In this document: in pieces, positions 1-19,643 of the stretch
Position numbering within the stretch: the stretch's first letter is position 1
Layout of the letters: every line of letters begins with the position of its first letter
DNA from: a virus
Reading direction: 5' to 3' (one strand)
IMG/VR virus record: IMGVR_UViG_3300027659_000276
Location: 1 to 20,309 of that record
Length of the DNA stretch: 20,309 nucleotides
Made by a program: the position numbers and the translations under genes
Notes under the pieces: generated by a model
Databases searched by the model: none
Seen by the model: the letters and a program-made list of their open reading frames with translations, nothing else
What the model was told of the DNA's origin: nothing

Positions 1-213
1 AATCACAATCAACGCAAATATACAGATAAACGCACTCGTTGGGGTGATGATATATTTGATAACAAGATAGCTAGTATTCCTATGACTGTCTTTGACGAAT
101 TAAACAAAAAAGGTATTATGCGTGGCTTCCATGTCATAGACCAAAAAGGCTTTAGAAAATTTCTTAATGACCCAGATAACAGAGTGTTTCGTACACGAGA
201 AGGCACAGTATAA
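1..213 (+). CDS. 3' end of an unrecognised small phage protein (partial)
   Basis: The frame is open from base 1 and ends in TAA at 211-213, giving 70 residues without a start. The stop overlaps the next ATG (TAATG at 211-215), so the two genes are translationally coupled. The visible part is basic and soluble, with a motif around residues 48-66 (KGFRKFLNDPDNRVFRTR) that resembles the C-termini of small phage proteins encoded next to neck genes. This resemblance is from memory only. Its place just upstream of the head-tail adaptor suggests a head or neck accessory gene, but no function can be assigned. An overlapping minus-strand frame (9-206) is considered a shadow. Confidence 0.75.
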   Translation, partial: NHNQRKYTDKRTRWGDDIFDNKIASIPMTVFDELNKKGIMRGFHVIDQKGFRKFLNDPDNRVFRTREGTV

Positions 214-827
214 TGGCATTTACAACATACACAGAACTAAAAGCATCTGTAGCTGATTACTTGGCTCGTACAGACTTAACAGCACAAATCCCAGACTTTA
301 TTACTCTAGCAGAAAAAAGACTGAAAAGAGATTTGCGTATTAGACAAATGCTTAAAGTTGTAACAGCAACTATGACAGCAGCAGACGCTACTGTAGCCTT
401 GCCTAGTGACTTTCTAGCAATGAGAGATTTGCATGTAGCTACTAACCCTGCAACACCTATAGAGTATTTAAGTCCTAGTAATTTCTACGCTAACGCTAGA
501 ACAACAGAATCAGGTAAACCTTCTAAATACTCAATACTAGCAGCAGAGTTTGTTTTTGCACCTGTACCTGATAGTGCTTATACACTTTCTATGCTTTATT
601 ACGCAGCACCTACAGAACTCAGTACATCTGTATCATCTAATGTATTTTTGGCTACTTGCCCAGACCTACTTCTTTATGGTGCATTAGGTGAAGCAGAACC
701 TTACTTACTAAATGACGCAAGATTACAAACTTGGGCTTCTCTTTATGATAGAGGCGTAATAGCTTTATCAACTTCAGACGATTCTAGTGAGTATGGAAGC
801 AGTCCTTTAACAATAACAATCGCATAG
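213..827 (+). CDS. Head-tail adaptor / connector protein (SU10-adaptor-like)
   Basis: A 204-residue protein. Such adaptors form a ring under the portal and connect it to the short tail. The N-terminal part (about 1-50) is helical with a pattern typical of the family: an opening MAFTTYTEL, a helix running to ARTDLTAQIPDFITLAEKRL, then RDLRIRQML. A beta-rich middle follows, with DFLAMRDLHV and later Y(I/T)LSMLYY segments. The C-terminal part returns to helix (LLLYGALGEAEPYL, then LYDRGV), ending in a flexible Ser-rich tail. The length matches the adaptor family of SU10-like podoviruses. Start at 213 is set by the TAATG overlap with the upstream stop. Family assignment rests on recognised sequence style and gene position, and a profile search would confirm it. 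Confidence 0.75.
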   Translation: MAFTTYTELKASVADYLARTDLTAQIPDFITLAEKRLKRDLRIRQMLKVVTATMTAADATVALPSDFLAMRDLHVATNPATPIEYLSPSNFYANARTTESGKPSKYSILAAEFVFAPVPDSAYTLSMLYYAAPTELSTSVSSNVFLATCPDLLLYGALGEAEPYLLNDARLQTWASLYDRGVIALSTSDDSSEYGSSPLTITIA

Positions 828-836
828 GAAAACATC

Positions 837-1229
837 ATGGCAGAAATGAGTAATTATTTAGAGAACGCTTTAATTAACGTAACTCTACGAGCAACATCTT
901 ACACAGCACCTACAACAGTTTATGTAGCATTATATACAACAGACCCAACAGACGCAGATGTAGGCACAGAAGTTAGTACATCTGGTACTGGTTATGCTAG
1001 AACAGCAGTTACCTTTGGAGCACCGTCTAATGGTGTTTCTACTAACTCTGCTACAGTTACATTTCCAACTGCTACAGCAGCTTTTGGAACAGTAACGCAT
1101 ATCGGTTTAAGAGATGCTTCTACAGCAGGTAATTTACTTTACCATACACCTTTAGATACATCTAAAACAATTGATGCTGGTGATATATTTAGTATTACCA
1201 CAGGCAATTTATCTGTGACTTTAGCTTAA
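837..1229 (+). CDS. Small tail-fibre / appendage-like structural protein
   Basis: A 130-residue protein, rich in Thr, Ala, Ser and Gly with almost no Lys or Cys. It opens with a short helix (MSNYLENALINVTLR) followed by what looks like an all-beta domain. It contains TTVYVALYTTDPT at about residues 26-38 and TVTHIGLRDASTAGNLLYHTPLD at about 84-106, a pattern common in a widespread phage structural family found beside tail genes. An AGGA site lies at 828-831, just before the start at 837; an internal ATG at 846 is a less likely alternative. It is the first gene after the adaptor and lies in a run of fibre-like genes, so a peripheral tail or fibre role is inferred. No attachment or enzymatic motif is seen. 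Confidence 0.6.
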   Translation: MAEMSNYLENALINVTLRATSYTAPTTVYVALYTTDPTDADVGTEVSTSGTGYARTAVTFGAPSNGVSTNSATVTFPTATAAFGTVTHIGLRDASTAGNLLYHTPLDTSKTIDAGDIFSITTGNLSVTLA

Positions 1230-1238
1230 GGATAATTC

Positions 1239-1730
1239 ATGGCTCTAGTAGTCAAGGATCGTGTTCAAGAAACAAGTACAACTACAGGCACAGGCACTAT
1301 TACGCTTCTTGGTGCAGTATCTGGCTTCCAATCATTCTCTGTTATTGGTAATGGTAATACTACTTACTACGCTATCGTATTAGGTACAGAGTTTGAGGTA
1401 GGTCTAGGTACATATACATCTTCAGGCACTACTTTATCTCGCACTACTGTATTAGAGTCTAGCAATAGCGGATCTCTAGTCAACTTTAGTGCAGGCACAA
1501 AGAATGTATTTGTAACTTATCCTGCTGAAAAAGCTGTTTATCAAGATGCTAATGGTGATGCTTATGCTCCACAGTTTGCAGCATCTAACGGACTTAATGT
1601 TAATAACGGAACTATAGGTACATCTTACACATTCCCTACAGGATATAACTCTGTAGAAGCTGGGGATATTACAATTTCAGGAAGTGTTACAGTTACAGTT
1701 CCTTCTACATCAAGATGGGTGATAGTATGA
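1239..1730 (+). CDS. Tail-fibre-like protein, short beta-rich
   Basis: A 163-residue Thr/Gly/Ser-rich protein. The first half (MALVVKDRVQETSTTTGTG, then FQSFSVIGNGNTTYYAIV) is a module seen very often at the N-terminus of fibre proteins in environmental phage genomes. It continues with GTYTSSGTTLSRTTVLESS and VTYPAEKAVYQD. The C-terminus (GSVTVTVPSTSRWVIV) is the closing beta segment also typical of fibre pieces, so the protein reads as a complete small fibre unit, not a truncated one. AAGGA at 1229-1233 lies just before the start. Its TGA stop overlaps the next start as ATGA at 1727-1730. Probable virion-surface appendage; the receptor is unknown. Confidence 0.6.
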   Translation: MALVVKDRVQETSTTTGTGTITLLGAVSGFQSFSVIGNGNTTYYAIVLGTEFEVGLGTYTSSGTTLSRTTVLESSNSGSLVNFSAGTKNVFVTYPAEKAVYQDANGDAYAPQFAASNGLNVNNGTIGTSYTFPTGYNSVEAGDITISGSVTVTVPSTSRWVIV

Positions 1731-2836
1731 GTACAATTATAAATGCAACTACCACTAATGGTGTAGTGATACAACCTGATAATAGTGGCTCATTAGTATT
1801 ACAAACTAATAGCGGTACTACAGCTCTTACTATAGATACATCACAAAGAGCAGCCTTTGTAGCTGGAACAGCAGCATTACCAGCTATCACCACAACAGGT
1901 GATACAAACACAGGTATATGGTTTCCTGCAGCAGATACTATAGCTTTTGCTGAAGGTGGTGCAGAGTCTATGCGTATAGACTCTAGTGGTAATGTAATAG
2001 TCAATGATACAGCTCAATCAGGTTCTGCAAAACTTACAGTTAAACAAACAGCTGATACTACAATAGGTGGAATTGCTATTGTTGCTACTGACGGCAATGG
2101 TGCTAATCTTTCTCGATTAACTGATGGCGGTTTAACATTTCGTAATGGTGGTTCAGAACGTATGCGTATAGACTCTAGTGGTAATGTGTTGGTAGGTAAA
2201 TCTTCTGCTAGTGGAGCAGTTGCTGGGGTTCAATTAGAACCATCAGGGTTGACAACTCTTGTTAGAAGTGGCGGTGTTGTTCTACAAATTAACAGATTAA
2301 CAAACGATGGGAATCTTATTGATTTTTATCAAGATACTGCTTTAGAAGGTAGTATTTCTGTATCTGGCTCAACAGTTTCTTACAATGGTGGTCACTTATC
2401 TCGTTGGTCACAATGGCAAAATGAAACAGGTAAGCCTAATGTATATCGTGGTTCAGTATTAGAGTCAGTTGATGCTATGTGTGAATGGGAAAAAAATGGT
2501 CAACCATTACCTAACGAACAAGCTACAAAGACTATTGTATCTACAACACTTGCATCTAAAGCAGTAGCTGGTGTATTTGATAGATATGATGAAGATGATG
2601 AAAATAATCCATACGACTTCTATGTAGCACAGTCTGGTGACTTTGTTATTCGTATAGCACAAGGTGTTACAGTTCAAAATGGTGACTTACTAGAGTCAGC
2701 AGGTGATGGCACAGCCAAACCACAAACAGATGACATTTGTCGTTCATCAACTATCGCAAAAGTAACATCTAACCATGTAAGTGCTACATACGAAGATGGT
2801 TCATACTGCGTTCCTTGTATTTTAATGATAGGATAA
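1727..2836 (+). CDS. Tail-fibre-like protein with repeated MRIDSSGNV motif
   Basis: A 369-residue protein if started at 1727. I prefer this ATG over the in-frame ATG at 1715 because it makes a classic ATGA overlap with the upstream stop. The N-terminal half is a repetitive beta fibre: a segment about GDTNTGIWFPAADTIAFAEGG leads into ESMRIDSSGNVIV, and the second half of that segment recurs as GGSERMRIDSSGNVLVG 64 residues later. This style of repeat is well known in marine phage fibres. From about residue 220 the composition changes to a globular, acidic domain containing ENNPYDFYVAQSGDFVIRI, GDLLESAGDGTAKPQ and RSSTIAKV. This is likely a C-terminal folding or receptor-facing domain. I see no clear catalytic signature in it. 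Product role is inferred from composition and context. Confidence 0.65.
   Translation: MSTIINATTTNGVVIQPDNSGSLVLQTNSGTTALTIDTSQRAAFVAGTAALPAITTTGDTNTGIWFPAADTIAFAEGGAESMRIDSSGNVIVNDTAQSGSAKLTVKQTADTTIGGIAIVATDGNGANLSRLTDGGLTFRNGGSERMRIDSSGNVLVGKSSASGAVAGVQLEPSGLTTLVRSGGVVLQINRLTNDGNLIDFYQDTALEGSISVSGSTVSYNGGHLSRWSQWQNETGKPNVYRGSVLESVDAMCEWEKNGQPLPNEQATKTIVSTTLASKAVAGVFDRYDEDDENNPYDFYVAQSGDFVIRIAQGVTVQNGDLLESAGDGTAKPQTDDICRSSTIAKVTSNHVSATYEDGSYCVPCILMIG
1955..1995 (+). repeat. Direct repeat copy 1 in fibre gene
   Basis: A 41-base segment that matches bases 2147-2187 with four mismatches, and is identical over its last 27 bases (1969-1995). It encodes the GGAESMRIDSSGNV unit. The copies lie 192 bases (64 codons) apart, so they are in frame. 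Confidence 0.85.
2147..2187 (+). repeat. Direct repeat copy 2 in fibre gene
   Basis: Second copy of the 41-base in-frame repeat, encoding GGSERMRIDSSGNV. The mismatches to copy 1 cluster in the ESM/ERM part, while the 27 bases over MRIDSSGNV are identical. Exact identity over 27 bases with freely substitutable codons suggests recent duplication or gene conversion. Confidence 0.85.
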
Positions 2837-2839
2837 CTA

Positions 2840-3382
2840 ATGGCTAACCTTATACTTAACGGTTCTACATCTGGTAGCGTTACATTATCCTCTCCAGCAG
2901 TATCAGGCACAACTACGCTAACATTGCCTACTACAAGTGGGACTGTGTTGACAACAACATCACCTAAAACAGGAAATGTAATACAAGTTGTAAATGCAGT
3001 TATTTCATCACAATCAAGCACAACAGGTACTAGCTATGTTGAATCAACTGTAACAGCATCTATCACCCCAACATCATCATCAAGTAAAATTTTAATATTA
3101 ATATCTGGATACCAAAGAATAAATGCGGCTGGTGCTTCAATATCATCAACAATATATAGAAATGCTTCTTCTTTAGAATCTACTACATTAGGAATGTCCT
3201 ATATGTATGGAAATAATACTACATTAGAATTTCAAGGCGTGCTTACATGGTTAGATTCTCCAGCAACAACTTCTTCTACTGCATATAAATTATATTTTAA
3301 ACGCGGGGATGCTGCAGGAACTGCATTTGTTGGACAGAGCCTCTCTTCTACTTCAATTACTTTAATGGAGATTGCGGGATAA
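2840..3382 (+). CDS. Tail-fibre-like protein with C-terminal beta domain
   Basis: A 180-residue protein. The N-terminal 36 residues (MANLILNGSTSGSVTLSSPA, then TTTLTLPTTSGTVLTT) are a fibre leader seen repeatedly in environmental phages. The remainder looks like a compact jelly-roll-type beta domain with VVNAVISSQSSTTGTSYVES, then SSSKILILISGYQRINAAGAS and YKLYFKRGDAAGTAFVG. The second half resembles phage fibre tip domains in which short beta strands alternate with hydrophilic loops. AGGATAACTA before the start at 2840 supplies the ribosome site, and the stop overlaps the next start (TAATG, 3380-3384). Likely a surface appendage piece; the receptor is unknown. Confidence 0.6.
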   Translation: MANLILNGSTSGSVTLSSPAVSGTTTLTLPTTSGTVLTTTSPKTGNVIQVVNAVISSQSSTTGTSYVESTVTASITPTSSSSKILILISGYQRINAAGASISSTIYRNASSLESTTLGMSYMYGNNTTLEFQGVLTWLDSPATTSSTAYKLYFKRGDAAGTAFVGQSLSSTSITLMEIAG

Positions 3383-3651
3383 TGGATAAACATTCAGCCA
3401 TATATAAACTTTATCCTAATGTAATCACTATTCGTGGTGATGTTGCTTACGATAAAGACGAACATGAAGTTGCATACGATAACGTTGCAGTAGAAGTTTT
3501 AATGGCTTCTGAAGAATACAAAACTAAACGTGCATCAGAATACCCAGCTATCACAGACCAACTAGACTACATCTACCACAACGGTATAGACGCATGGAAA
3601 ACAGACATGATTGACCCTGTAAAAGCAAAGTATCCTAAAGGAGCAGTATAA
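3382..3651 (+). CDS. Small non-repetitive protein within fibre array (possible fibre accessory)
   Basis: An 89-residue, mixed alpha/beta protein with normal composition, unlike the Thr/Ser-rich neighbours. It contains PNVITIRGDVAYDKDEHEV near the start and, at about residues 54-73, a motif of the type EYPAITDQLDYIYHNGIDAW followed by KAKYPKG. The second motif is a recognisable signature of small phage proteins encoded next to tail fibres, some labelled XkdW-like in annotations. Both ends are coupled by TAATG (3380-3384 and 3649-3653), so it should be made in step with the fibre genes on each side. A role in fibre assembly or as a minor tail component is inferred from this position only. Confidence 0.6.
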   Translation: MDKHSAIYKLYPNVITIRGDVAYDKDEHEVAYDNVAVEVLMASEEYKTKRASEYPAITDQLDYIYHNGIDAWKTDMIDPVKAKYPKGAV

Positions 3652-4586
3652 TGCCTGTTAGCATCTCTGGAACAAATGGCATAACTAATGCTACATGGAC
3701 TACTGGTACAAGACCGTCTGCTCCTAGTGCAGGACAGCAAGGATATAATTCTACTATTAATGCTTTTGAATATTATAATGGCACATCTTGGCAAATTGTT
3801 GTTTCAAATTATATCTATTCTGCATCTTATCTAATTGTAGCTGGTGGCGGTGGTAATGGTATAGGATTTGGTGCAGGAGCAGGAGCTGGTGGATTATTGT
3901 CTGGAACCTCAACATTAACAGCAGGAACAACTTATACATTTGTTGTAGGTGCTGGTGGTGGCACTAATGGACCAAATACAAACGGAACAAATGGAAATAA
4001 CTCTACAGGATTAGGCTTAACAGCTATTGGTGGAGGTCGTGGTGCTTGCTCTACTGCTGGGTCTCCTGGAGTAGGTGGGTCAGGAGGAGCAGGTTCTTTA
4101 CCTAGTGTGGCTGGTGCAGCTGGAACTGCAGGTCAAGGTAATGCTGGAGGAGCAGGTAATGCTTCAACTGCAGCAGGTGGCGGTGGTGGTGCTGGGTCAG
4201 CTGGAGCAGCTCCTGTAGGAAATGTTGGAGGTGTAGGTGGAGCTGGAGCTATTTCTACATTAATTACAACAGCTCAAGCAACATCAAATAGCGTAGGACA
4301 AGTAGTAAGCACATCTGTATATTTTGCTGGTGGCGGTAATGGAAATGGTACTGGTGGTGGTGGAACACCATCTAATGGAGGAACAGCACAAGGTTCTCAA
4401 GGAGCTGTTAATTCAGGTTCTGGTAGTGGTGGCGATACTAATCCCGGAGGAGGAGGGTCAGGAGTGGTTCTGTTATCCGTACCAACAGTAAGTTACTCTG
4501 GCACAACTACAGGAAGCCCAGCAGTAGTTACTAATGGCTCAGACACAGTTATAATATTTAAATCTTCAGGAAGCTACACAGCATAA
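3651..4586 (+). CDS. Glycine-rich tail-fibre-like protein
   Basis: A 311-residue protein. Residues 1-60 resemble a fibre leader: TNGITNATWTTGTRPSAPS, then GQQGYNSTINAFEYYNGTSWQ, a pattern often found just before fibre tips. From YLIVAGGGG (about residue 62) to about residue 270 the sequence is dominated by Gly, Ala, Ser, Asn and Thr with GGAG, GGNG and GGGG runs. This matches the phage glycine-rich domain class that forms polyglycine-II-type tips in some adhesins. The C-terminus returns to beta (GVVLLSVPT, then SDTVIIFKSSGSYTA), which is how such glycine-rich domains usually close. Likely a receptor-binding or adhesin tip; fold and receptor are inferred from composition and family style. Confidence 0.7.
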   Translation: MPVSISGTNGITNATWTTGTRPSAPSAGQQGYNSTINAFEYYNGTSWQIVVSNYIYSASYLIVAGGGGNGIGFGAGAGAGGLLSGTSTLTAGTTYTFVVGAGGGTNGPNTNGTNGNNSTGLGLTAIGGGRGACSTAGSPGVGGSGGAGSLPSVAGAAGTAGQGNAGGAGNASTAAGGGGGAGSAGAAPVGNVGGVGGAGAISTLITTAQATSNSVGQVVSTSVYFAGGGNGNGTGGGGTPSNGGTAQGSQGAVNSGSGSGGDTNPGGGGSGVVLLSVPTVSYSGTTTGSPAVVTNGSDTVIIFKSSGSYTA

Positions 4587-4595
4587 GGAAAAAAT

Positions 4596-4943
4596 ATGTC
4601 ACATTTTGCAAAAGTTTTAGAAGGTAAAGTAGTACAAGTTATAGTAGCAGAAAAAGAATTCTTTGATACATTTGTAGACTCAAGTGCAGGCACTTGGTTA
4701 CAAACTTCATACAACACACATGGTAATCAACATCCAGAAGGTAGACCTTTAAGAGGTAACTATGCTGGTATTGGTTACAATTATGATGCTACTAATGACG
4801 TATTCTACGCACCACAACCATTTCCATCATGGATACTAAACAATACAACATGGTTATGGGAAGCACCTGTAGCTATGCCTACAGACGGTAAACAATATAA
4901 ATGGAATGAGTCCATTACTAACTGGGAAGAAGTAACACTTTAA
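4596..4943 (+). CDS. Small conserved phage protein next to fibre genes
   Basis: A 115-residue protein of ordinary composition. It begins MSHFAKVLEGKVVQVIVAEK and carries GTWLQTSYNTHGNQHPEG, then LRGNYAGIGYNYDATNDVFY, PQPFPSWILNNTTWLWEAP and GKQYKWNESITNWEEV. This whole pattern, rich in Trp and Tyr, is a recognised small protein of cyanophage-like and other aquatic phage genomes. Its usual location beside tail fibres suggests a virion or fibre accessory role, but the function is not established. AAGGA at 4586-4590 precedes the ATG. The terminal repeated W/E pattern hints at a small beta domain ending on the N-W-E segment. Confidence 0.65.
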   Translation: MSHFAKVLEGKVVQVIVAEKEFFDTFVDSSAGTWLQTSYNTHGNQHPEGRPLRGNYAGIGYNYDATNDVFYAPQPFPSWILNNTTWLWEAPVAMPTDGKQYKWNESITNWEEVTL

Positions 4944-4953
4944 GGAGCAATAA

Positions 4954-5730
4954 ATGTTTGGAATAGCTAGTTTTTCCCAAGCTCCCTTTAGTTCGTTAGC
5001 AGGAAGATTTGTAGAAGCATCTGCAGCAATAACAGCAGACGCAACGGTAAGTGTTTCAGGTACACGCTTTAGAACATCTAATGCTAGTATAAACGCTACT
5101 GCAACAGTTACAGTTACTCTAAGTGGTTCATTAGTATTTGGCACAGCAGTTATAAATGGATTTGCAGACGTATCTGCATTAGGCACTAGAACACAATTTG
5201 GTAGTGGTGCAATATTTGCAGAAGCTATCGTATCTGCTACTGGTGGTTCTCTCGCACTAGCTTCAGCAAGCATTACAGCAACAGGTACAGTTGTAGCAAA
5301 TGGCAATACACTTTCTAGTGGTAATGCTTCTATCACAGCCAATGCTGTTGTTCAAGCCAATGCCTTTAGAACACAATTTAGTAGTGGTGCTATTACAGGA
5401 ACGGCTACAGTATCAGCACTTGGTGGTATGGTATTTGATGGTATTGCAGATGTTACAGGATTTGCTACAGTTACAGCTAGTCCTAACGCTATATTTGCAG
5501 GATTTGCTTATGTAGAAGGTATAGGAAGTGTAACAGCTAAAGGCAGTAGGTTAGGTGAAGAATGGATACCTGTACCAGTAGGCACAGAAGCATGGGCACC
5601 AGTTACAGCAGGCACAGAAACATGGACAGCAGTAGCACCTTCTACAGATACATGGACACCAGTTACAGCAGGAACAGAAACTTGGACTGATACAATTCCA
5701 AGTACAGACATTTGGTTAAGACAAGGGTAA
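4954..5730 (+). CDS. Repetitive Ala/Thr/Val fibre-like protein with Trp decapeptide tail
   Basis: A 258-residue protein. Residues 15-200 are a degenerate beta repeat of the type A.I.A.A.V.A.G, with units such as SASITATGTVVANG and SGAITGTATVSALGG. An N-terminal segment FGIASFSQAPFSSLAG precedes it. Residues 201-258 switch to a regular ten-residue repeat with Trp at 204, 214, 224, 234, 244 and 254 (for example STDTWTPVTA). There is no Cys, and it looks like an extended shaft with a distinct tip or linker. An AAGGAG site at 4942-4947 precedes the ATG. Probably a virion fibre or appendage component. I do not recognise a specific family beyond its low-complexity nature. Confidence 0.6.
   Translation: MFGIASFSQAPFSSLAGRFVEASAAITADATVSVSGTRFRTSNASINATATVTVTLSGSLVFGTAVINGFADVSALGTRTQFGSGAIFAEAIVSATGGSLALASASITATGTVVANGNTLSSGNASITANAVVQANAFRTQFSSGAITGTATVSALGGMVFDGIADVTGFATVTASPNAIFAGFAYVEGIGSVTAKGSRLGEEWIPVPVGTEAWAPVTAGTETWTAVAPSTDTWTPVTAGTETWTDTIPSTDIWLRQG
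5188..5390 (+). repeat. Direct repeat pair in the Ala/Thr/Val repeat gene
   Basis: Bases 5188-5210 and 5368-5390 match at 22 of 23 positions and lie 180 bases (60 codons) apart. They encode RTQFGSGA and RTQFSSGA. The 60-codon spacing suggests that an approximately 60-residue block of the fibre repeat was duplicated, with the rest since diverged. Confidence 0.75.
5554..5727 (+). repeat. Tandem 30-base repeat encoding a Trp decapeptide
   Basis: Six units of 9-10 codons with Trp at a strict ten-residue spacing. Internal units read GTEAWAPVTA, GTETWTAVAP, STDTWTPVTA and GTETWTDTIP. Units two and four are closest at the DNA level (the run from the ACCAGTTACAGCAGG block to ACAGAAAC.TGGAC). Odd and even units alternate (GTE... 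against STD...) in the second half, suggesting amplification of a 20-residue pair. Confidence 0.85.
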
Positions 5731-5733
5731 AAA

Positions 5734-6294
5734 ATGGCAAAGACAAAAATTAGTGAATATTCATCAACCCCAGCAAGTAATACCGACATTAGTAATATTA
5801 ACATTGCTGAAGGATGCTCACCTGCAAACGTAAATAATGCTATTCGTTCTTTAATGGCTCAACTAAAAGATCAACAAGATGGCACAGGCGGTGATAACTT
5901 TACAGTAGGTGGAAACTTATCTGTTACAGGAACATCTACGCTTACTGGTAATGTTACTGCCCCAACACAATCATCTTCTGATAATTCTACTAAAGTAGCT
6001 ACAACAGCTTTTGTAACGACTAAAGTAGGTACACTAGGTACAATTTCAACTCAAAATGCTAATGCTGTTGCAATAACAGGCGGAACTATTAATGGCACTA
6101 CATTAGGTGCAACAACACCAGCAGCAGGTACATTTAGCACATTAACTTCAGCAAGTGCAGCGATTACTGGTGGTACTATTACTGGTACAACAATAAACTC
6201 TGTTACTGTGGGCTCTAACGCATCTGGAGCTAAAACTCTTTCAACAGCAGCTCCAACAGGTGGTTCTAATGGAGATGTTTGGTATAGGTATTAA
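5734..6294 (+). CDS. Tail-fibre-like protein
   Basis: A 186-residue protein. The N-terminus MAKTKISEYSSTPASNTDIS, followed by a helix-prone NVNNAIRSLMAQLKDQQDG, is a very common start of fibre proteins in aquatic phages. The shaft then has GNLSVTGTSTLTGNVTAPT, KVATTAFVTTKV and repeated ITGGTI(N/T)GTT units. It ends with GGSNGDVWYRY, a motif that in other phages often leads into a further carbohydrate-facing tip. AAGGG at 5723-5727 gives a weak ribosome site. The next gene starts only 2 bases after its stop. Likely a fibre component; it and the following gene could be two parts of one functional appendage. Confidence 0.65.
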   Translation: MAKTKISEYSSTPASNTDISNINIAEGCSPANVNNAIRSLMAQLKDQQDGTGGDNFTVGGNLSVTGTSTLTGNVTAPTQSSSDNSTKVATTAFVTTKVGTLGTISTQNANAVAITGGTINGTTLGATTPAAGTFSTLTSASAAITGGTITGTTINSVTVGSNASGAKTLSTAAPTGGSNGDVWYRY

Positions 6295-6296
6295 TT

Positions 6297-6854
6297 ATGG
6301 GATTCTATTTAGGCACTTCTGTAAATGTTAGTGGCACTTGGCAAACTCCTTTTGCTATAAATGTAAATGATAGCGGCACATGGAGAAAACTAAAACAAAT
6401 TTATGTAAATGACGCAGGCACTTGGCGTTCTGTTTATGAATTTTGGGATATTGACCCTGATACTACTTATTCAGCAAATGTTACATTTACTTCACGAAGT
6501 AATGCAGGAGCAAATTCTACTGGGTTTTTTAGATGGGTAAATACAACAGACGCTACTTTTACATCAAAAGGCTGGTGGACTAGAACTCAAGTAACTCAAA
6601 ATGATGGCGGCTTTTTTTCAGATACTGGATGGCAAGCTGGAGCTACTTCTACAAATGCTAACCAAGCTGTAGGAAGAATGTTGCTTCCAACTAAAACAAG
6701 TTTAGGTGGTAATTCATCACTTATTTCAGTTCCTACTCTACAAGCTAATGGCTCTCATTTTAGTAATAATTGGTATGCAAGATGGAACTATTCAGGCGAA
6801 GTAACAACATTTAATAACTCACTAAATTCTGTTCCAGCAAATTGGATTTCATAA
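6297..6854 (+). CDS. Fibre-tip-like protein with N-terminal GTW repeats
   Basis: A 185-residue protein. Residues 9-47 contain three units of about 14 residues with Trp at 15, 29 and 43 (VNVSGTW, VNDSGTW, YVNDAGTW). These are a repeat known from phage fibre proteins. The remainder is a beta-rich domain with many aromatics (FWDIDPDTTYSANVTF, then GFFRWVNTTDATFTSKGWW and NNWYARWNYSGEV), a composition that fits carbohydrate or surface binding. It begins 2 bases after the previous stop without a strong ribosome site, so re-initiation from the upstream gene is likely. Its stop overlaps the next ATG (TAATG, 6852-6856). Function as a receptor-facing tip is inferred. Confidence 0.6.
   Translation: MGFYLGTSVNVSGTWQTPFAINVNDSGTWRKLKQIYVNDAGTWRSVYEFWDIDPDTTYSANVTFTSRSNAGANSTGFFRWVNTTDATFTSKGWWTRTQVTQNDGGFFSDTGWQAGATSTNANQAVGRMLLPTKTSLGGNSSLISVPTLQANGSHFSNNWYARWNYSGEVTTFNNSLNSVPANWIS
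6321..6446 (+). repeat. GTW 14-residue repeat (three units)
   Basis: Three consecutive units with Trp spaced 14 residues apart (15, 29, 43), core V-N-(V/D)-x-G-T-W. The DNA has diverged (GGCACTTGG, GGCACATGG, GGCACTTGG at the cores), so this is an older or selected repeat. Confidence 0.75.
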
Positions 6855-8689
6855 TGCCTACACAACGTATACAATTCAAAGATTGGTTACCTGACCAACC
6901 TAGTATCTTAGATACAGTATCAGAGGCTAATAACGTCATTCCTCTAGCTGTAGGTTATGGTGCGTTCAAGTCAGCAGTAAATTACTCTGCGGATGCAAGT
7001 GAAAATTTAACTAACGTCTTTGCTGCTAAGGTAGATAATGATGTTACTTTATTTGCAGGAGGTCTTACTAAACTATTTAAACTAGATTCATCTACTTTAG
7101 CATTAGATAATGTAAGTAAAAGTGCAGCAAGAACGATAAGCAACGTAGCTTTAACATCTAACGTAGCTACTATTACAACTGCTTCTGCTCATAAATATAG
7201 CACAGGTGATAGTGTAACAGTAGACGCAAGTAACAATGTATTTGATGGTACTTATGTCATTACAGCAACACCTACAGCTACAACATTTACCTACGCTAAA
7301 GTCAATGCTAATATTACAAGTGCAGCAGCCACAGGAACAGTTATAGCTCCTAATTATACAGGCATTTTTAGATGGCAATTTATACAGTTTGGTAATTTTG
7401 CTATTGCTACAAATGGATCTGAAAAAGTACAATATTATGATGTAAACGCATCTAGTTACTTTGGTGATTTAGCTGCAACAGCTCCTATTGCTAAGTTTGT
7501 AACAGTTGTTCGTGATTTTGTAGTGTGTGCAAATATTGGTGGTGGCACAAATCCATCAAAAGTGCAATGGTCAGATATTAACGACCCAACTGATTGGACA
7601 GCAGGCGGTGCATCACAAAGTGACTTCCAAGAAATTCCAGATGGCGGAGATATAAATGCAATAACAGGTGGCGAGTATGGTCTAGTATTTTTAGAAAAAG
7701 CTATTGTTAGAATGTCATATATTGGCTCACCTTTATTCTTTCAGTTTGACACAATTAGTCGTAACATAGGATGTTTAGAGGGTGGCTCTGTAGCTCAGTA
7801 TAGTGGTGTTACTTACTTCTTAGCAGATGACGGATTCTATTCATGTAACGGACAACAAGTTACCCCTATTGGTGCAGAAAAAGTAGACAGATTCTTCTTT
7901 AATAACGCTAATATTGCAGACATAGATACTATCTCATCAAGTATAGACCCTGAACGTAACTTAGTTATTTGGAATTATACTAACGTATCTGGTAATAGAG
8001 AATTACTTATATATAACTTCCAAACACAAAAATGGTGTAGTGCTGATACAGACGTAGACTATCTAGGTACTCTTGCTACGACTGGCACATCTTTAGAAGG
8101 TATAGATACAGCATACAACGTAACAGCAGGCTCATTTGTAGCCACAAAACAATACACAATTAGAAGTGTAGGAACAACAGACTTTACCCTTATAGGTGCA
8201 GTCGCTAATACAGTAGGTGTATTATTTACAGCTACAGGTGTAGGCTCAGGCACAGGTGTAGCTATAGATATGGCAGCCTCAGCCGCAGCAGCTAAGACAA
8301 TAGATACACTTGTAACTACAATGGATGACAGACTCTACAAAGGTGGTAAGTTTATCTTTGGTGGTGTGCGTGATGCTAAGATTATTACCTTTACAGGCAC
8401 TAATGCTACAGCCAGTATCACTACAAACGATTTAGAATACGGATATAACTCTGTGCTTACCCTTATTAGACCTTCTGTAGATAATGGCTCTGCAGACGTT
8501 TCTGTGGCTTCTAGACGTATGTTAGATGATACTATTACATTTGGTTCTAGTGTATCTGCAAGCTCAGAAGGTAGATGTCCTGTAAGAAGTGCTAGTCGTT
8601 ATCATAGAGTAAACTTTGTGCCTACAGGTGCTAACTGGTTCTCTGCTATTGGAATGGATATAGATTACTCTGAACAAGGAACTAGATAA
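6854..8689 (+). CDS. P22 gp10-like / nozzle-type tail protein with two inserted modules
   Basis: A 611-residue protein starting at 6854, chosen because of the TAATG overlap; an in-frame ATG 12 bases upstream would extend into the previous gene. Proteins of this type form the tail tube or nozzle below the adaptor and close the DNA channel. Recognisable pieces are the N-terminal FKDWLPDQPS and NNVIPLAVGYGAFKS, then KVQYYDV, VVRDFVVCANIG, PSKVQWSDINDPTDW, LVFLEKAIVRMSYIG and TYFLADDGFYSCNGQQVTPIG. This is a beta-propeller-like succession seen in phage stabilisation proteins. Two segments (about 7142-7354 and 8116-8263) look inserted. Following it are a small gene and the ejection genes, the expected order. 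The assignment is from pattern recognition. Confidence 0.75.
   Translation: MPTQRIQFKDWLPDQPSILDTVSEANNVIPLAVGYGAFKSAVNYSADASENLTNVFAAKVDNDVTLFAGGLTKLFKLDSSTLALDNVSKSAARTISNVALTSNVATITTASAHKYSTGDSVTVDASNNVFDGTYVITATPTATTFTYAKVNANITSAAATGTVIAPNYTGIFRWQFIQFGNFAIATNGSEKVQYYDVNASSYFGDLAATAPIAKFVTVVRDFVVCANIGGGTNPSKVQWSDINDPTDWTAGGASQSDFQEIPDGGDINAITGGEYGLVFLEKAIVRMSYIGSPLFFQFDTISRNIGCLEGGSVAQYSGVTYFLADDGFYSCNGQQVTPIGAEKVDRFFFNNANIADIDTISSSIDPERNLVIWNYTNVSGNRELLIYNFQTQKWCSADTDVDYLGTLATTGTSLEGIDTAYNVTAGSFVATKQYTIRSVGTTDFTLIGAVANTVGVLFTATGVGSGTGVAIDMAASAAAAKTIDTLVTTMDDRLYKGGKFIFGGVRDAKIITFTGTNATASITTNDLEYGYNSVLTLIRPSVDNGSADVSVASRRMLDDTITFGSSVSASSEGRCPVRSASRYHRVNFVPTGANWFSAIGMDIDYSEQGTR
7142..7354 (+). 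other. Inserted beta module 1 in nozzle-like protein
   Basis: Encodes roughly 70 residues running from NVALTSNVATITTASAHKYS through DSVTVDASNNVFDGTYVIT to FTYAKVNANITSAAATGTV. The pattern (V-T-x-x-A-H-x-(Y/F)-x-x-G-D-x-V-x-V, then F-(N/D)-G-T-Y-x-I) is a stand-alone Ig-like domain commonly found in phage virion proteins. It interrupts the propeller-like sequence. Boundaries are approximate. Confidence 0.65.
8116..8263 (+). other. Inserted beta module 2 in nozzle-like protein
   Basis: Encodes about 49 residues: VTAGSFVATKQYTIRSVGTT, then DFTLIGAVANTVGVLFTATG and VGSGTGVA. This unit (YTI-x-x-x-G-T-T-D-F-T-x-I-G-A) occurs as a mobile small domain in many environmental phage virion proteins. Flanking sequence on both sides (LEGIDTAYN before; KTIDTLVTTMDD after) looks like the parent protein. 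Boundaries are approximate. Confidence 0.65.
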
Positions 8690-9006
8690 TGGCTCGTAGT
8701 GATATGTACCGCAAGCTACCTTTTCAAGGTGGTGATGCCAGAAGCGTAGCTGAAATAGTAAACAACCTTGTAGAAGGTAAGTCTAACAACACAGGCTCAT
8801 TTTCTACTACTGTAAGCACTACAAATGCTACGCTAAGTGATGAACGTATAGGATTTAACTCAGTTATCTTATTTATGCCACTAGACCATAACTCATCTAT
8901 GGAATTAAAAGACGTTTATTTTGACAACTTTGCACAAGGTTCTTGCACAGTTCATTATGGAAACCATGCAGTTGCAAGGAACTATCGTTATATAATAGTA
9001 GGATGA
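8689..9006 (+). CDS. Small probable virion protein downstream of the nozzle gene
   Basis: A 105-residue protein starting with a TAATG overlap (8687-8691). The N-terminus MARSDMYRKLPFQGGDARS, then VAEIVNNLVEGKSNNTGSF, is helical. The C-terminal half has short beta strands: NSVILFMPLDHNSSMELKDV, VYFDNF, CTVHYGNHA and a closing YRYIIVG. Small proteins with this beginning and a similar end are often found between the tail nozzle gene and the internal virion genes of environmental podoviruses. Coupling on both sides (ATGA with the next gene at 9003-9006) supports co-production with virion proteins. Precise function is unknown. Confidence 0.65.
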   Translation: MARSDMYRKLPFQGGDARSVAEIVNNLVEGKSNNTGSFSTTVSTTNATLSDERIGFNSVILFMPLDHNSSMELKDVYFDNFAQGSCTVHYGNHAVARNYRYIIVG

Positions 9007-9401
9007 TTTTACACTATATACCTAAAGATAAGTTAAGAGAACATTGGGGCTATGTTAAACATGGTCTTGAGTTAGTTCGTGTTAAAGGTCACATGGAATG
9101 GATTATAGAAGATATTTACTGTGACTGTTATGAACAACGTTCTATGTTATTTCTAGGTTTAGTAGATAATAAAGCAGTAGGCTTTGTAGTACTTCAACCT
9201 ATAGGAAATACACTTCATGTATGGGCTACATGGTCTACACTTAATGATGAAACATTATTCTATCAAGCATTTCAAGAAATACAAGCAATAGCAAAACAAG
9301 GCGGTAAGTCTAGGGTTACCTTTTCATCTCAGCGTAAAGGTTGGGAACGTAAGGCTAGAGCATTAGGTTTTAAACCTCAAACATGGGAATTTATACTTTA
9401 A
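9003..9401 (+). CDS. GNAT-fold-like small phage protein
   Basis: A 132-residue protein if begun at the ATGA overlap (9003). A longer reading from 8943 would overlap the previous gene by over 60 bases and lacks a ribosome site, so it is rejected. The order helix (KDKLREHWGYVKHGLELVRV), acidic loop (WIIEDIYCDCYEQ), strand (SMLFLGLVDNKAVGFVVLQP), strand (TLHVWATWS), helix (ETLFYQAFQEIQAIAKQGG) and strand/loop (RVTFSSQRKGWERKARALGF) follows an acetyltransferase fold. R-K-G-W-E-R-K-A-R-A-L-G-F resembles the terminal GNAT element. A canonical acetyl-CoA Q/RxxGxG/A loop is not obvious, so catalysis is uncertain. In podoviruses such proteins lie beside internal virion genes (compare T7 gp13). A structural role is possible. 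Confidence 0.6.
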   Translation: MILHYIPKDKLREHWGYVKHGLELVRVKGHMEWIIEDIYCDCYEQRSMLFLGLVDNKAVGFVVLQPIGNTLHVWATWSTLNDETLFYQAFQEIQAIAKQGGKSRVTFSSQRKGWERKARALGFKPQTWEFIL

Positions 9402-14869: not shown

Positions 14870-15199
14870 ATGAAACAATTACTCATGGCAATAACTTTAT
14901 TATTGCTGTGGGTGTTTCTTTATGATTACGCAGAAAGTAAAGAACTTGTAAAAGAAATGAGCATGGCTACAGAAGCAGGTGAAATAGTATTAACTTCTGA
15001 GGAATGTGCATTTAAAAAACAAGGCTTACAGGGTTATGACTACGCTGCTTATGCAACTGACAAAGGTCATGCAAACCATGAAGGTTGTTGGAAGTCTGAT
15101 AACTATGAAGGTAAACAAGCAGTCTATATTTACTTTCCAGAGATAAACCAAACAGCAGTATTTGACGCTAAACTATTTAAGCCTAAAGCCACGATATGA
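14870..15199 (+). CDS. Membrane-anchored or exported small phage protein
   Basis: A 109-residue protein. An N-terminal hydrophobic segment (about 4-18, LLMAITLLLLWVFLYDYA) follows MKQ and would act as a signal anchor. The remainder is polar and probably periplasmic. Motifs GEIVLTSEECAFKKQG and, further on, YAAYATDKGHANHEGCWKSD resemble a recurring phage protein type with two cysteines (about residues 47 and 68) that could form a disulfide. The closing part is QAVYIYFPEINQTAVFDAKL. No lipobox is seen. AGGAAAG precedes the ATG; its stop makes ATGA with the next start (15196-15199). The position in the lysis cassette suggests an envelope function, but the specific activity is unknown. Confidence 0.6.
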   Translation: MKQLLMAITLLLLWVFLYDYAESKELVKEMSMATEAGEIVLTSEECAFKKQGLQGYDYAAYATDKGHANHEGCWKSDNYEGKQAVYIYFPEINQTAVFDAKLFKPKATI

Positions 15200-15555
15200 C
15201 ATTCATTACAGAGAACAACATAGCCAATCTTTATTCGGCTTTAATAGAGTTCCCTGTATTTGACGAGTATAAACTACCACCTGCATCTAAAGTAGATTTT
15301 GTAATAGTGCATGACGATACTATATGTGGACAATACGAACCACCAGAGCAAGGTGAGCCTCATGTTATAACTATATCTACTGCACGTCATTCTCATCTAT
15401 ACCCTGTCTTAATGACTTTATGCCATGAGATTATACATATGTGCGTATATTTAGACTCACCTAAAACAGACAAATATACAAGCCATAAAGGTTTATTCTT
15501 AAAATTACAAAAGCGTGTAGCCAAGATGTATGGCTTTGACCCTAAGGAGTTATAA
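15196..15555 (+). CDS. SprT-like zinc metallopeptidase
   Basis: A 119-residue protein with the zinc-peptidase signature HEIIH (H77, E78, H81) in LMTLCHEIIHMCVY, and a following H97 in TSHKGLFLKLQKRVAKMYGF that would be the third ligand. The N-terminal part has beta strands (KVDFVIVHDD, then PHVITISTAR) as in SprT-like domains. It lacks a signal peptide, so it acts in the cytoplasm unless exported during lysis. SprT-like proteins in phages are small and of unknown substrate; the fold is shared with DNA-protein crosslink proteases. It is coupled at both ends (ATGA and TAATG). Metallopeptidase fold is confidently seen; the role is not. Confidence 0.8.
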   Translation: MTFITENNIANLYSALIEFPVFDEYKLPPASKVDFVIVHDDTICGQYEPPEQGEPHVITISTARHSHLYPVLMTLCHEIIHMCVYLDSPKTDKYTSHKGLFLKLQKRVAKMYGFDPKEL

Positions 15556-15944: not shown

Positions 15945-16099
15945 TTGTATTAAATTTAATGAATTTTATTGGGTTGTCCTTTCTTAAATTAATTGTTGTT
16001 GCTTTATTGTTTATAGCTATGGGATTTTCTTTAGCGTTTATGATAGCAATGGAAAAACTTACAAACGTATTGGAATATATCAATTCATATGTTGATTGA
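15941..16099 (+). CDS. 52-aa single-TM miniprotein in the lysis cassette
   Basis: A 52-residue frame starting at ATGA (15941-15944), where the start overlaps the holin stop, and ending in TGA at 16097-16099. It fills a gap that would otherwise be about 145 bases in a genome with almost no gaps. It has one long hydrophobic stretch, about residues 9-36 (FIGLSFLKLIVVALLFIAMG, then FSLAFMIA), followed by EKLTNVLEYINSYVD. The size and arrangement fit a small second holin, antiholin or other lysis-timing protein. It overlaps the start of the DUF5675 gene by 11 bases. No homolog can be named. Confidence 0.6.
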   Translation: MIVLNLMNFIGLSFLKLIVVALLFIAMGFSLAFMIAMEKLTNVLEYINSYVD

Positions 16100-16478
16100 A
16101 GTAAAAAGGTTTGAATTTAAAGACACGCATACAGTAGGTAAAATGTATGTAAACGGTGTATATGAGTGTTACACACTAGAAGACGTGGTTAGAAATGGCA
16201 CTAAAGTGTTAGGCAAGACTGCTATTCCTATCGGTGAATATAAACTTATTGTAGACGCTTCTGCACGCTTTAAACAAGACATGCCACACATACTAGACGT
16301 TCCTAACTTTACAGGTGTTCGTATTCACTCTGGCAACACTTCAGCAGATACAGATGGATGTATACTACTTGGCTCAACATGGGCAGGTAAAGACTTCATA
16401 GGTAATTCTAAAATAGCATACAACAAGTTCTTTGAGAAATTAAAGAAAGCTAAAACAGCTACAATTAAAATATGTTAG
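16089..16478 (+). CDS. DUF5675 protein, probable lysis-linked enzyme
   Basis: A 129-residue protein. It matches the DUF5675 pattern: KRFEFKDTHTVGKMYVNGVY, then ECYTLEDVVRNG, GKTAIPIGEYKLIVDASARF, HILDVPNFTGVRIHSGNTSA and DTDGCILLG. The R78-x-H80-S-G-N and D-G-C91 elements resemble the catalytic His/Cys of L,D-transpeptidase-like folds, so a peptidoglycan-related activity is plausible though not proven for this family. No signal peptide is present, so access to the wall would need the holin. No clear ribosome site precedes the ATG at 16089; coupling from the 52-aa frame it overlaps is likely. It sits directly after the holins, where an endolysin would normally lie. Confidence 0.75.
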   Translation: MLIEVKRFEFKDTHTVGKMYVNGVYECYTLEDVVRNGTKVLGKTAIPIGEYKLIVDASARFKQDMPHILDVPNFTGVRIHSGNTSADTDGCILLGSTWAGKDFIGNSKIAYNKFFEKLKKAKTATIKIC

Positions 16479-17939: not shown

Positions 17940-18179
17940 CTACTCCTTATGTATCTTAAAGTCCTCTTCCGTTAGTATGGGTCTATCTTTCTTAGCATCA
18001 GCTAACATCATTTCTAATACTTCTATAATTTCTTGAGGACTGTTACCTACAATTACGTCTGCATCACTAAACGCCATAGGTTTATTAGTTTTGCTTTCAT
18101 AAAAAACCTCATTCAATGCGTAATAACATTCAGGTTCATCTTTAGATATTCGCTTAATGATTCTATAGTTCCACGTCAT
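17940..18179 (-). CDS. Small conserved phage protein, unknown function
   Basis: A 79-residue soluble protein beginning MTWNYRIIKRISKDEPEC, then YYALNEVFYESKTNKPMAFS and a helical C-terminus containing EIIEVLEMMLADAKKDRPIL. The opening MTWNYR(V/I)(I/R) with YYA(L/I)xEV(F/Y)Y is familiar from small phage and bacterial proteins of unknown function. Start fixed by ATGA overlap with the glycosyltransferase stop (18179-18176). It ends in TAG 3 bases before the 34-aa gene. No catalytic or binding motif recognised. Confidence 0.65.
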   Translation of the reverse strand: MTWNYRIIKRISKDEPECYYALNEVFYESKTNKPMAFSDADVIVGNSPQEIIEVLEMMLADAKKDRPILTEEDFKIHKE

Positions 18180-18907
18180 ACCAACCTGCCACTAAATTGA
18201 TAAGTGCCTGTGTGACCTAGTTGTGCCCATGCTGCACCCCAAACCTTAATACCATTATCCCTAGCTAGTTTACAGAAATGATAATCCTCACTTAATAAAT
18301 GATTTCGGTCATCAATGCTAGTGGTAAAGTATTCTGTAACCTTGTCACCTAAATCAGAGTTATCATTTACATCATTCATGTTATGTGTATAAGATGGACA
18401 CTTGTCTTTAAGCTTTTCAAATACTTCACGTTTAATCAACATAAATCCAGTGCCACCATGTTTAATCTCAAATGGCTTATCTAATGGCACAAGTTGTTTC
18501 TCAACATCGCCAACCATATTTACTACATACTCGCCAGTAAAGTATTTAAGTTGATCCTGTGGCACTTTCTTTTCAATAGCAAAAGATACTGCACCCCAGT
18601 TAATTTCTTTTTTAGGATACAAGCCACATATAATCTCCACATCAGAGTCAATCATCTTTAATAAGTGTTGTGCCTCAAACTGTATGTCAGCATCAATAAA
18701 CATTAAGTGTGTAGCGTCACCCTTTAAAAAGTCATTAACTAATGTATTACGACCACGAGTAATAAGGCTTTCATTATACAAAAATGAAAAGTATGCCTCT
18801 ATGTCTTTAGCATTAAGCCATGCTTGCAGCTTTAGCATAGACTCTAGATAAGTTCCATAACACAGCCCGCCATACATAGGTGTTGCTATAAATAAATTAG
18901 GTTTCAT
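18176..18907 (-). CDS. GT-A-fold glycosyltransferase
   Basis: A 243-residue protein started at 18907, 4 bases after AGGAG. A longer frame from 18952 would overlap the upstream gene. It opens IATPMYGGLCYGTYLESMLK, then SLITRGRNTLVNDFLKGDAT, and HLMFIDADIQFEA with the metal-binding D-A-D (72-74). Later GGTGFMLIKREVFEKL, HLLSEDYHFCKLARDNG (E207-D208) and GHTG (H232) follow the order of GT-A transferases. It would transfer a sugar from a nucleotide donor in the cytoplasm. It is paired with another transferase immediately upstream. The target (host surface sugar, phage protein or DNA) is unknown. Confidence 0.8.
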   Translation of the reverse strand: MKPNLFIATPMYGGLCYGTYLESMLKLQAWLNAKDIEAYFSFLYNESLITRGRNTLVNDFLKGDATHLMFIDADIQFEAQHLLKMIDSDVEIICGLYPKKEINWGAVSFAIEKKVPQDQLKYFTGEYVVNMVGDVEKQLVPLDKPFEIKHGGTGFMLIKREVFEKLKDKCPSYTHNMNDVNDNSDLGDKVTEYFTTSIDDRNHLLSEDYHFCKLARDNGIKVWGAAWAQLGHTGTYQFSGRLV

Positions 18908-18914
18908 AATACTC

Positions 18915-19643
18915 CTATTCTGGTATAAATGTTGATGACTTTCTCCATGCAAAATTTCCCTTAAATCTATTTTTATTAAAATTATTATTTTCTATAAACG
19001 CTTCTTTTGACATAGACAACGAACCGTCTTTAGAAAGTCTGTAATTTACTGTTGCTTCACCAGTACAACCACACTTTGCTTTTGACTGTAATAAACCTTT
19101 TAAAAAATTTCTATCTGAACATATAGGATAATACCATTTATAACTTGTTTGTCTAGCTAAATTTGTTTTTACAACATAACAAGAGTTATCTACTAGGTAT
19201 TGTTTTGCTGTATTTGGAAAATAGCCTAAACTTTCACAATCATCATCGCATATGTATTCACCATCATTATTAACAATACGTCTTAATGAGTATGCCCAAT
19301 CCAAATTATTTTCTTCTATAAATCCAACAGTTTTTTGTATATGATTTTTTTCGTAGAAATTATCATCATCTAAATAACATATAATATCTTCAGAAACTAC
19401 AAACGGAGCTAAAGCATATACAGGAGCCATTCCATATCCATCATTACCATTATTATTTGGAAGATATATTGGCACAACATTATTATATTGATTTAAAATT
19501 ACTTTAGATTTTTTTTCAAATTCTTTTCCATGAATAAAAACATAATGAATTGCTTTTCTTGTTTGGCTTTGAACACTTTTAATTGTATCGTGTAATGTTT
19601 CTCTTCCTATTGTTGAGGTAATAACTGCAATACTATTAGTCAT
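18915..19643 (-). CDS. GT2-like glycosyltransferase
   Basis: A 242-residue protein. GGAG lies 6 bases before the ATG. The N-terminus SIAVITSTIGRETLHDTIKS and VQSQTRKAIHYVFIHG form the nucleotide-binding half of a GT-A fold, and YLDDDNFYEKNHIQ carries the DxD-type metal site (LDDDN, 91-95). The C-terminal half has GEYICDDDCESLGYF, YYPICSDRNFLKGLLQ and NYRLSKDGSLS. It differs clearly from the downstream transferase, so the two are not a recent duplicate. Seven bases separate its TAG from the next start. Sugar and acceptor are unknown; surface-sugar or virion modification is a reasonable guess. Confidence 0.75.
   Translation of the reverse strand: MTNSIAVITSTIGRETLHDTIKSVQSQTRKAIHYVFIHGKEFEKKSKVILNQYNNVVPIYLPNNNGNDGYGMAPVYALAPFVVSEDIICYLDDDNFYEKNHIQKTVGFIEENNLDWAYSLRRIVNNDGEYICDDDCESLGYFPNTAKQYLVDNSCYVVKTNLARQTSYKWYYPICSDRNFLKGLLQSKAKCGCTGEATVNYRLSKDGSLSMSKEAFIENNNFNKNRFKGNFAWRKSSTFIPE

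Follow-up and report, generated by a model that had tools for sequence, protein, structure and literature searches.

An ordered array of putative receptor-binding fibre genes between the tail adaptor and nozzle genes of a podovirus

Why should a podovirus carry ten short, tightly packed genes between its tail adaptor and its nozzle, and are they the remains of something larger or parts of a working whole? The question is raised by IMG/VR record IMGVR_UViG_3300027659_000276, a whole virus record of 20,309 bases that forms the window analysed here. All ten genes are intact plus-strand open reading frames (ORFs) and lie, as the original prediction had it, between an adaptor and a nozzle-like gene (Table 1); we refer to them in order as f1, f2, f3, f4, a5, f6, a7, f8, f9 and f10. 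The modules it had named are present in the translations (two MRIDSSGNV repeats, a Gly-rich tip, an Ala/Thr/Val shaft, Trp repeats and GTW repeats), and the close coupling it described is confirmed: ATGA joins f2 to f3 (1727-1730), TAATG overlaps occur at 3382, 3651 and 6854, and the remaining neighbours are 2-10 bases apart. Where it counted at least eight low-complexity, fibre-like genes, our reading leaves seven, with f1, a5 and a7 being compact proteins. We consider it likely that the locus works as an ordered array of genes for receptor-binding fibres in a podovirus with an SU10/GP4-type tail, in which f1 and f8 are constant, f2 and f9 supply anchors, f3, f4 and f6 are interchangeable, and a5 and a7 are assembly factors dedicated to particular tips.

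The setting is that of a podovirus tail: profile matches identify all of adaptor, gp80-type fibre-I protein and nozzle in an SU10/GP4-type module. The first gene, f1, matches PF23140 over residues 4-128 (1.2e-48; 165 bits against a cut-off of 27) and the solved protein of Ralstonia podophage GP4 (PDB 8JOU chain a, 8e-16), being a full-length homologue of fibre-I gp80 located directly after the adaptor. The earlier statement that no gene in the set has a known tail-attachment N-terminus fails, because gp80, the homologue of f1, has a known place in the podovirus tail. The title of Zheng et al. 2023 (cited in PMC11784390) gives the GP4 tail three fibre types, whereas here there can be as many as seven fibre genes, with exchangeable tips and accompanied by companion genes.

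To examine relatives, we collected about 460 IMG/VR loci using the adaptor, f8, f9, a5, a7, f4 and f2, together with annotated phages, and built profiles from the window genes, one per N-terminal or C-terminal module; the metagenomic contigs are redundant and partial, and profiles and most counts are drawn from overlapping data. Modules keep to their ends. N-terminal placement was found for the f2 and f9 anchors (ancF2, 198/198 ORFs; ancF9, 232/232) and for the leaders of f4 and f3 (nF4, 157/162; nF3, 140/145), and C-terminal placement for the tips of f4, f6 and f2 (tipS, 93/93; tipG, the Gly-rich tip, 192/196; tipF2, 163/163). Within each slot, mean identity is 63-78% across the first 40 amino acids (aa) and 17-32% across the last 40, and conserved starts with variable ends are what one would expect of proteins that dock by the N-terminus and recognise by the C-terminus. 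The N-termini of f2 and f9 thus behave as conserved anchors, the latter being common to annotated tail fibres of cultured phages, and these two proteins are the best anchor candidates on sequence. Pfam searches found no T4gp10-like domain in either: f2 had no Pfam match and f9 no match to a tail domain.

Architectures were counted over 113 non-redundant IMG/VR loci that span f1 to the nozzle, and two states are usual. Either a single long fibre joins the f2 anchor to one tip in a region of 5-6 genes (ancF2-f8-ancF9 only, 54/113 loci), or an array of 9-12 genes is present, with f1, an f2 of about 163 aa and fibres of the nF3, nF4 and often nF6 type ahead of f8 and f9 (ancF2-nF3-nF4(-nF6)-f8-ancF9, 38/113); minimal loci hold just f1 and f8. 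A short f2 ending in tipF2 is associated with the presence of an nF3 gene (41 loci with both and 2 with the short form but no nF3, against 3 long forms with nF3 and 54 without; Fisher 5e-22). The layout of the window, with fixed gene order, is found in more than 40 non-redundant relatives and is therefore not due to chance.

This recurrence bears on the word 'fragmented' in the original prediction, and on the rival view that frameshift or decay broke up a single long fibre gene, or that the split arose as an assembly artefact. Searching for the modules fused in one protein, the check it had proposed, did find the f2 anchor and an f6-type Gly-rich tip joined in a single protein of 400-705 aa in 16 close relatives, from which it follows that the region can shrink or grow by recombination. 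However, the fused protein is one anchor plus one tip, and the nF3 and nF4 fibres are additional to it, not its pieces; every gene begins at a start of its own, in most cases preceded by a ribosome-binding site (a Shine-Dalgarno-like match of at least 4 nucleotides lies upstream of nine of the ten, against 23% of random positions; for f3 the start is 1727, corrected from the ORF-finder's 1715); and in the split state, which recurs across the more than 40 loci, f2 keeps to 160-166 aa. Decay or artefact is thus very improbable, and we rejected it on these grounds: the split state is an ordered, conserved architecture and not frameshifted debris.

Some arrays hold a further gene. An HNH-type endonuclease, annotated in MW202481 (L082:14053-14697), lies between f1 and the next tail gene, and an unlabelled 214-aa ORF of the same size occupies the equivalent spot in L018 and L162; the gene at this position is likely a homing insert. 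In MEP301, gp20 (L378:3920-4501), annotated as an endonuclease, opens with MASIKLQGD, the residues with which the following nF4 fibre also begins, as though it had been inserted in the leader.

What then accompanies a tip? The 89-aa a5 follows proteins ending in tipS (..SPATTSS..ITLMEIKG) whatever their N-terminus (77/77), and the 115-aa a7 follows the Gly-rich end in 70/130 cases, a further 24 tipG genes standing before a second tipG gene that carries a7. There were no crossovers (Fisher 1e-43), and the pairing persisted after removal of tips more than 70% identical (tipS-a5 68, tipG-a7 28; Fisher 8e-25), among loci fetched without companions as query (14/14 and 35/48), and in out-of-sample loci for which the prediction had been written beforehand (8/9 and 6/7, again with zero crossovers). 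Other tip classes have small genes of their own, and adjusted mutual information is 0.69 between tip and companion against 0.29 between leader and companion; the divergence of a7 follows the tip more closely than the leader (partial Mantel 0.70 vs 0.33). By sequence, a5 is thus specific to tipS and a7 to tipG. In a few cases inserts separate a tipG gene and a7. One of them, a sulfotransferase-like ORF (MIKKIIGLSGLPRSGSTLLSAILCQNP), occurs between the two in L232, L234, L323 and L347, and an extra ORF of about 142-147 aa precedes a7 in L232, L234 and L323 (kinase-like in L232 and L323).

The pairs also occur in cultured phages of other groups, namely P-SSP7, MEP402 (two tipS-a5 pairs), MEP301 and HTVC025P, and a Gly-rich protein precedes an a7 relative in cultured phages Melnitz and CRP-207. 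MEP401 and MEP402, which share a host strain, are 93% identical in f1, 89% in the shaft and 96% in the tipF2 protein, but alignment of their nF3-slot proteins is confined to aa 1-43, and the two phages differ in both tip and companion. Compared as sequences, this pair is a natural experiment in which tip and companion were swapped together behind conserved leaders. Such joint movement resembles the host-recognition modules of Alteromonas phages A5, V22 and P24, in which a fibre and its cognate chaperone are transferred together between distant phage families (PMC10579305), although those belong to other protein families and form no multi-slot array.

By analogy with Tfa and Pam3 gp25, a5 and a7 would be assembly factors, each specific to one tip: like those chaperone genes, each lies directly downstream of its client fibre and is specific to its tip, and position, tip specificity and joint transfer all fit an intermolecular fibre chaperone. 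The suggestion that the locus is a multi-gene fibre set with these two small proteins as likely assembly factors has accordingly held up, both being tied to specific tips. In myocyanophage Pam3, chaperone gp25, with a beta-rich N-terminus and helical C-terminus, serves gp24, a fibre with TNF-like and Gly-rich parts (PMC9608196), and the likeness lies in a Gly-rich tip with a dedicated chaperone; the AlphaFold2 (AF2) model of a5 (predicted local distance difference test score, pLDDT, 95.5) has a beta-hairpin followed by helices. In L465 and L466, an a5-like C-terminal half lies behind a different N-terminus and beside another tip, as described for both gp25 and Tfa (PMC9608196). The differences are that a5 and a7 have no significant sequence or fold match to gp25 and that Pam3 has one fibre where several are found here.

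Strict tip-specific pairing is, however, expected of a tip cap as much as of a chaperone, and a5 and a7 could instead remain on the virion as structural caps or adhesins touching the receptor, like T-even gp38, which is encoded beside its fibre; Tfa of phage Mu does stay on the virion (PMC9608196). We regard this as rather unlikely. Between contigs a7 is 80-97% identical, far above the neighbourhood of its tip and unlike hypervariable adhesins; a5 is small, helical and devoid of Gly-rich loops in its AF2 model; and in Pam3, the closest solved analogue, the chaperone went undetected in virions (PMC9608196).

Several observations weigh against the interpretation of the locus as an array with tip-dedicated assembly factors. 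About a quarter of tipG genes have no a7 nearby; P-SSP7 has three tipS genes and one a5; the divergence of a5 is explained by the leader at least as well as by the tip (partial Mantel 0.46 vs 0.32); and in the T4-like cyanophage S-SSM5 a distant relative of a7 (L373:5001-5381) does not directly follow a fibre gene. Neither protein had a Pfam match, a PDB profile match or similarity to known Tfa families. The a7 model (AF2, pLDDT 86.6) found as its best match among 350,542 PDB chains a chain of the Pam3 fibre-chaperone entry 7ypx, which is not significant (E = 1.1, probability 0.38), and the a5 model had no PDB match, resembling only uncharacterised phage proteins. In the literature we found no virion proteomics or structure for any array phage, nor, in the open literature, virion proteomics of P-SSP7 or HTVC010P. 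As a separate observation, the S-SSM5 a7 relative sits among oxygenase genes, with a Gly-rich protein gene four genes upstream.

How might so many fibres be held on one tail? Where a gene ends in tipF2, the next encodes an nF3 or nF4 fibre in 99/131 cases, whichever N-terminus the tipF2 gene has, against 0/68 for ancF2 genes lacking tipF2. Similarly, a fibre with the GTW leader followed all eight genes that join ancF9 to the f9 tip (tipF9) and none of 173 other ancF9 genes. Judged from this co-occurrence, the most economical reading is that tipF2 perhaps serves as the docking hub of a branched fibre. More fully, and only tentatively, tipF2 would be a docking domain not recognised before and with no sequence relation to T4gp10; fibres led by nF3, nF4 and nF6 would join it in order to build a branched appendage, and f9 (through tipF9) and f10 would use the principle a second time, with leaders specifying position, tips the receptor and companions folding.

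The idea that tipF2 is sufficient for an adjacent array was tried and failed out-of-sample, where a 166-aa f2 with tipF2 was followed directly by f8 in 27/54 cases; the out-of-sample contrast between genes with and without tipF2 was not significant (p = 0.55, with only three ancF2 genes lacking tipF2). This third architecture speaks for another account, which we hold to be conceivable but short of probable, in which each leader (nF3, nF4, nF6) docks by itself to the adaptor, the nozzle or the f1 ring, no hub exists and gene order reflects descent. Yet among genomes with f2 directly before f8, the array lay downstream behind ancF9 in five of the six full records read, and in those five tipF2 (E 1e-19 to 1e-24) forms the end of the ancF9 protein, with a fibre led by nF3 or nF4 coming next, so that the relocated array too begins immediately after a gene with a tipF2 end, here with ancF9 as the anchor; in the sixth, ancF9 lacks tipF2 and there is no array. 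The failure of ancF2 genes without tipF2 ever to precede nF3 or nF4 likewise tells against independent docking. Behind either anchor, then, a tipF2 end usually has an array immediately downstream, but it is not sufficient for one.

The proposed hub recalls T4gp10-type anchor-branched systems (PMC6872550), in which one directly anchored fibre alternates with a docking-domain anchor plus further fibres, and in which secondary fibres bear short conserved N-termini, as the nF3 and nF4 leaders do here. It differs in that f2 and f9 have no T4gp10-like domain, docking is suggested here by co-occurrence, and there are more fibres, with dedicated companions. Searched alone in the phage collection, tipF2 was found only in MW202481 and Venkman, MEP401 and MEP402 being recognised by eye. 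The cultured Methylophilales phages Venkman, MEP401 and MEP402 and the uncultured MW202481 have slot order, leaders and companions as in the window, but their genes are annotated only as tail fibre or hypothetical, and no description of an array was seen in PMC9004378 or PMC10580990. The array therefore acts like known anchor-branched fibres with cognate chaperones, yet membership of neither family is established.

In the array as we picture it, f1 and f8 would be constant tail proteins and f2 and f9 would carry the anchors; the interchangeable fibres f3, f4 and f6 would be positioned by short, slot-specific N-terminal leaders and, we infer, be incorporated into the virion, their C-terminal tips determining what each fibre binds. 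Each companion, a5 for tipS and a7 for the Gly-rich tip, would travel with its tip and presumably help it fold, and host range would change by a swap of tip and companion behind a constant leader. Alternatively, the array could be a store of alternative fibres of which each virion uses one or few, with no multi-part appendage on every particle: the number of fibres differs between loci, with none in some and five or more in others, and duplicated tips of a single class occur (L087, L090, L092). Tight translational coupling in one direction and fixed slot order nevertheless favour joint expression and ordered assembly, and we think a store improbable.

Table 1. Features of the fibre locus and its borders in the window.
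Feature	Position	Strand	Evidence
Tail adaptor, SU10 type (upstream border)	213..827	+	PF24175 SU10_adaptor 1e-34, 121 bits (cut-off 27); phrog_2941 8e-49
f1: GP4 fibre-I (gp80)-type tail protein, core	837..1229	+	PF23140; PDB 8jou_a; directly 3' of adaptor in relatives
f2: short putative anchor protein, ancF2 (aa 1-105) + tipF2 (aa 106-163)	1239..1730	+	Module positions in relatives
tipF2 module of f2, candidate docking hub	1554..1727	+	Precedes nF3/nF4 genes; also ends ancF9 gene before relocated arrays
f3: slot-2 fibre, leader nF3 + MRIDSSGNV repeats + cF3 tip, no companion gene	1727..2836	+	Genes joining nF3 to cF3 are directly followed by nF4 genes
f4: slot-3 fibre, leader nF4 (aa 1-42) + tipS	2840..3382	+	Module profiles, locus order
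a5: 89-aa companion of tipS, probable assembly chaperone	3382..3651	+	phrog_9114 3.5e-14; placed after tipS
f6: slot-4 fibre, leader nF6 (aa 1-50) + putative Gly-rich adhesin tip (tipG)	3651..4586	+	PF21722 Gly_rich_2 1.6e-7, 32 bits (curated cut-off 24.3)
a7: 115-aa companion of tipG, probable assembly chaperone	4596..4943	+	phrog_7759 4.6e-30; placed after tipG, never tipS
f8: core Ala/Thr/Val shaft protein with Trp repeats	4954..5730	+	In 108/113 adaptor-nozzle loci
f9: second putative anchor, ancF9 (aa 1-70) + tipF9 (aa 147-186)	5734..6294	+	ancF9 at protein starts; same N-terminus on annotated fibres
f10: fibre, GTW-repeat leader + orphan C-terminus	6297..6854	+	GTW-leader genes come after genes joining ancF9 to tipF9, not after other ancF9 genes
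Tail nozzle (downstream border)	6854..8689	+	phrog_3287 3.5e-57; PDB 8zkm 2e-8 (podophage nozzles)

PDB searches with f2, f6, f8, f9 and the C-terminus of f3 gave no meaningful match, and the C-terminal part of f10 (6477-6851) had no relative in any collection searched, making it an orphan tip. Elsewhere in the window are a GNAT-like protein (9003-9401, judged by eye; phrog_610), a weak SprT-like match below cut-off (15196-15555), a DUF5675 protein (16089-16478) and, on the minus strand, two adjacent glycosyltransferase-like genes (18176-19643, judged from translations only).

For these abundant aquatic podoviruses, host range seemingly follows a simple grammar of leader, tip and companion that can be read from sequence alone and that explains how tips move between phage families and yet still fold. 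Two uncharacterised families, phrog_9114 and phrog_7759, gain a concrete, testable role, and the cultured phage pairs named above are ones in which swaps are open to direct study. Cumulatively, the array suggests a way in which a phage may change its host range without rebuilding its tail.

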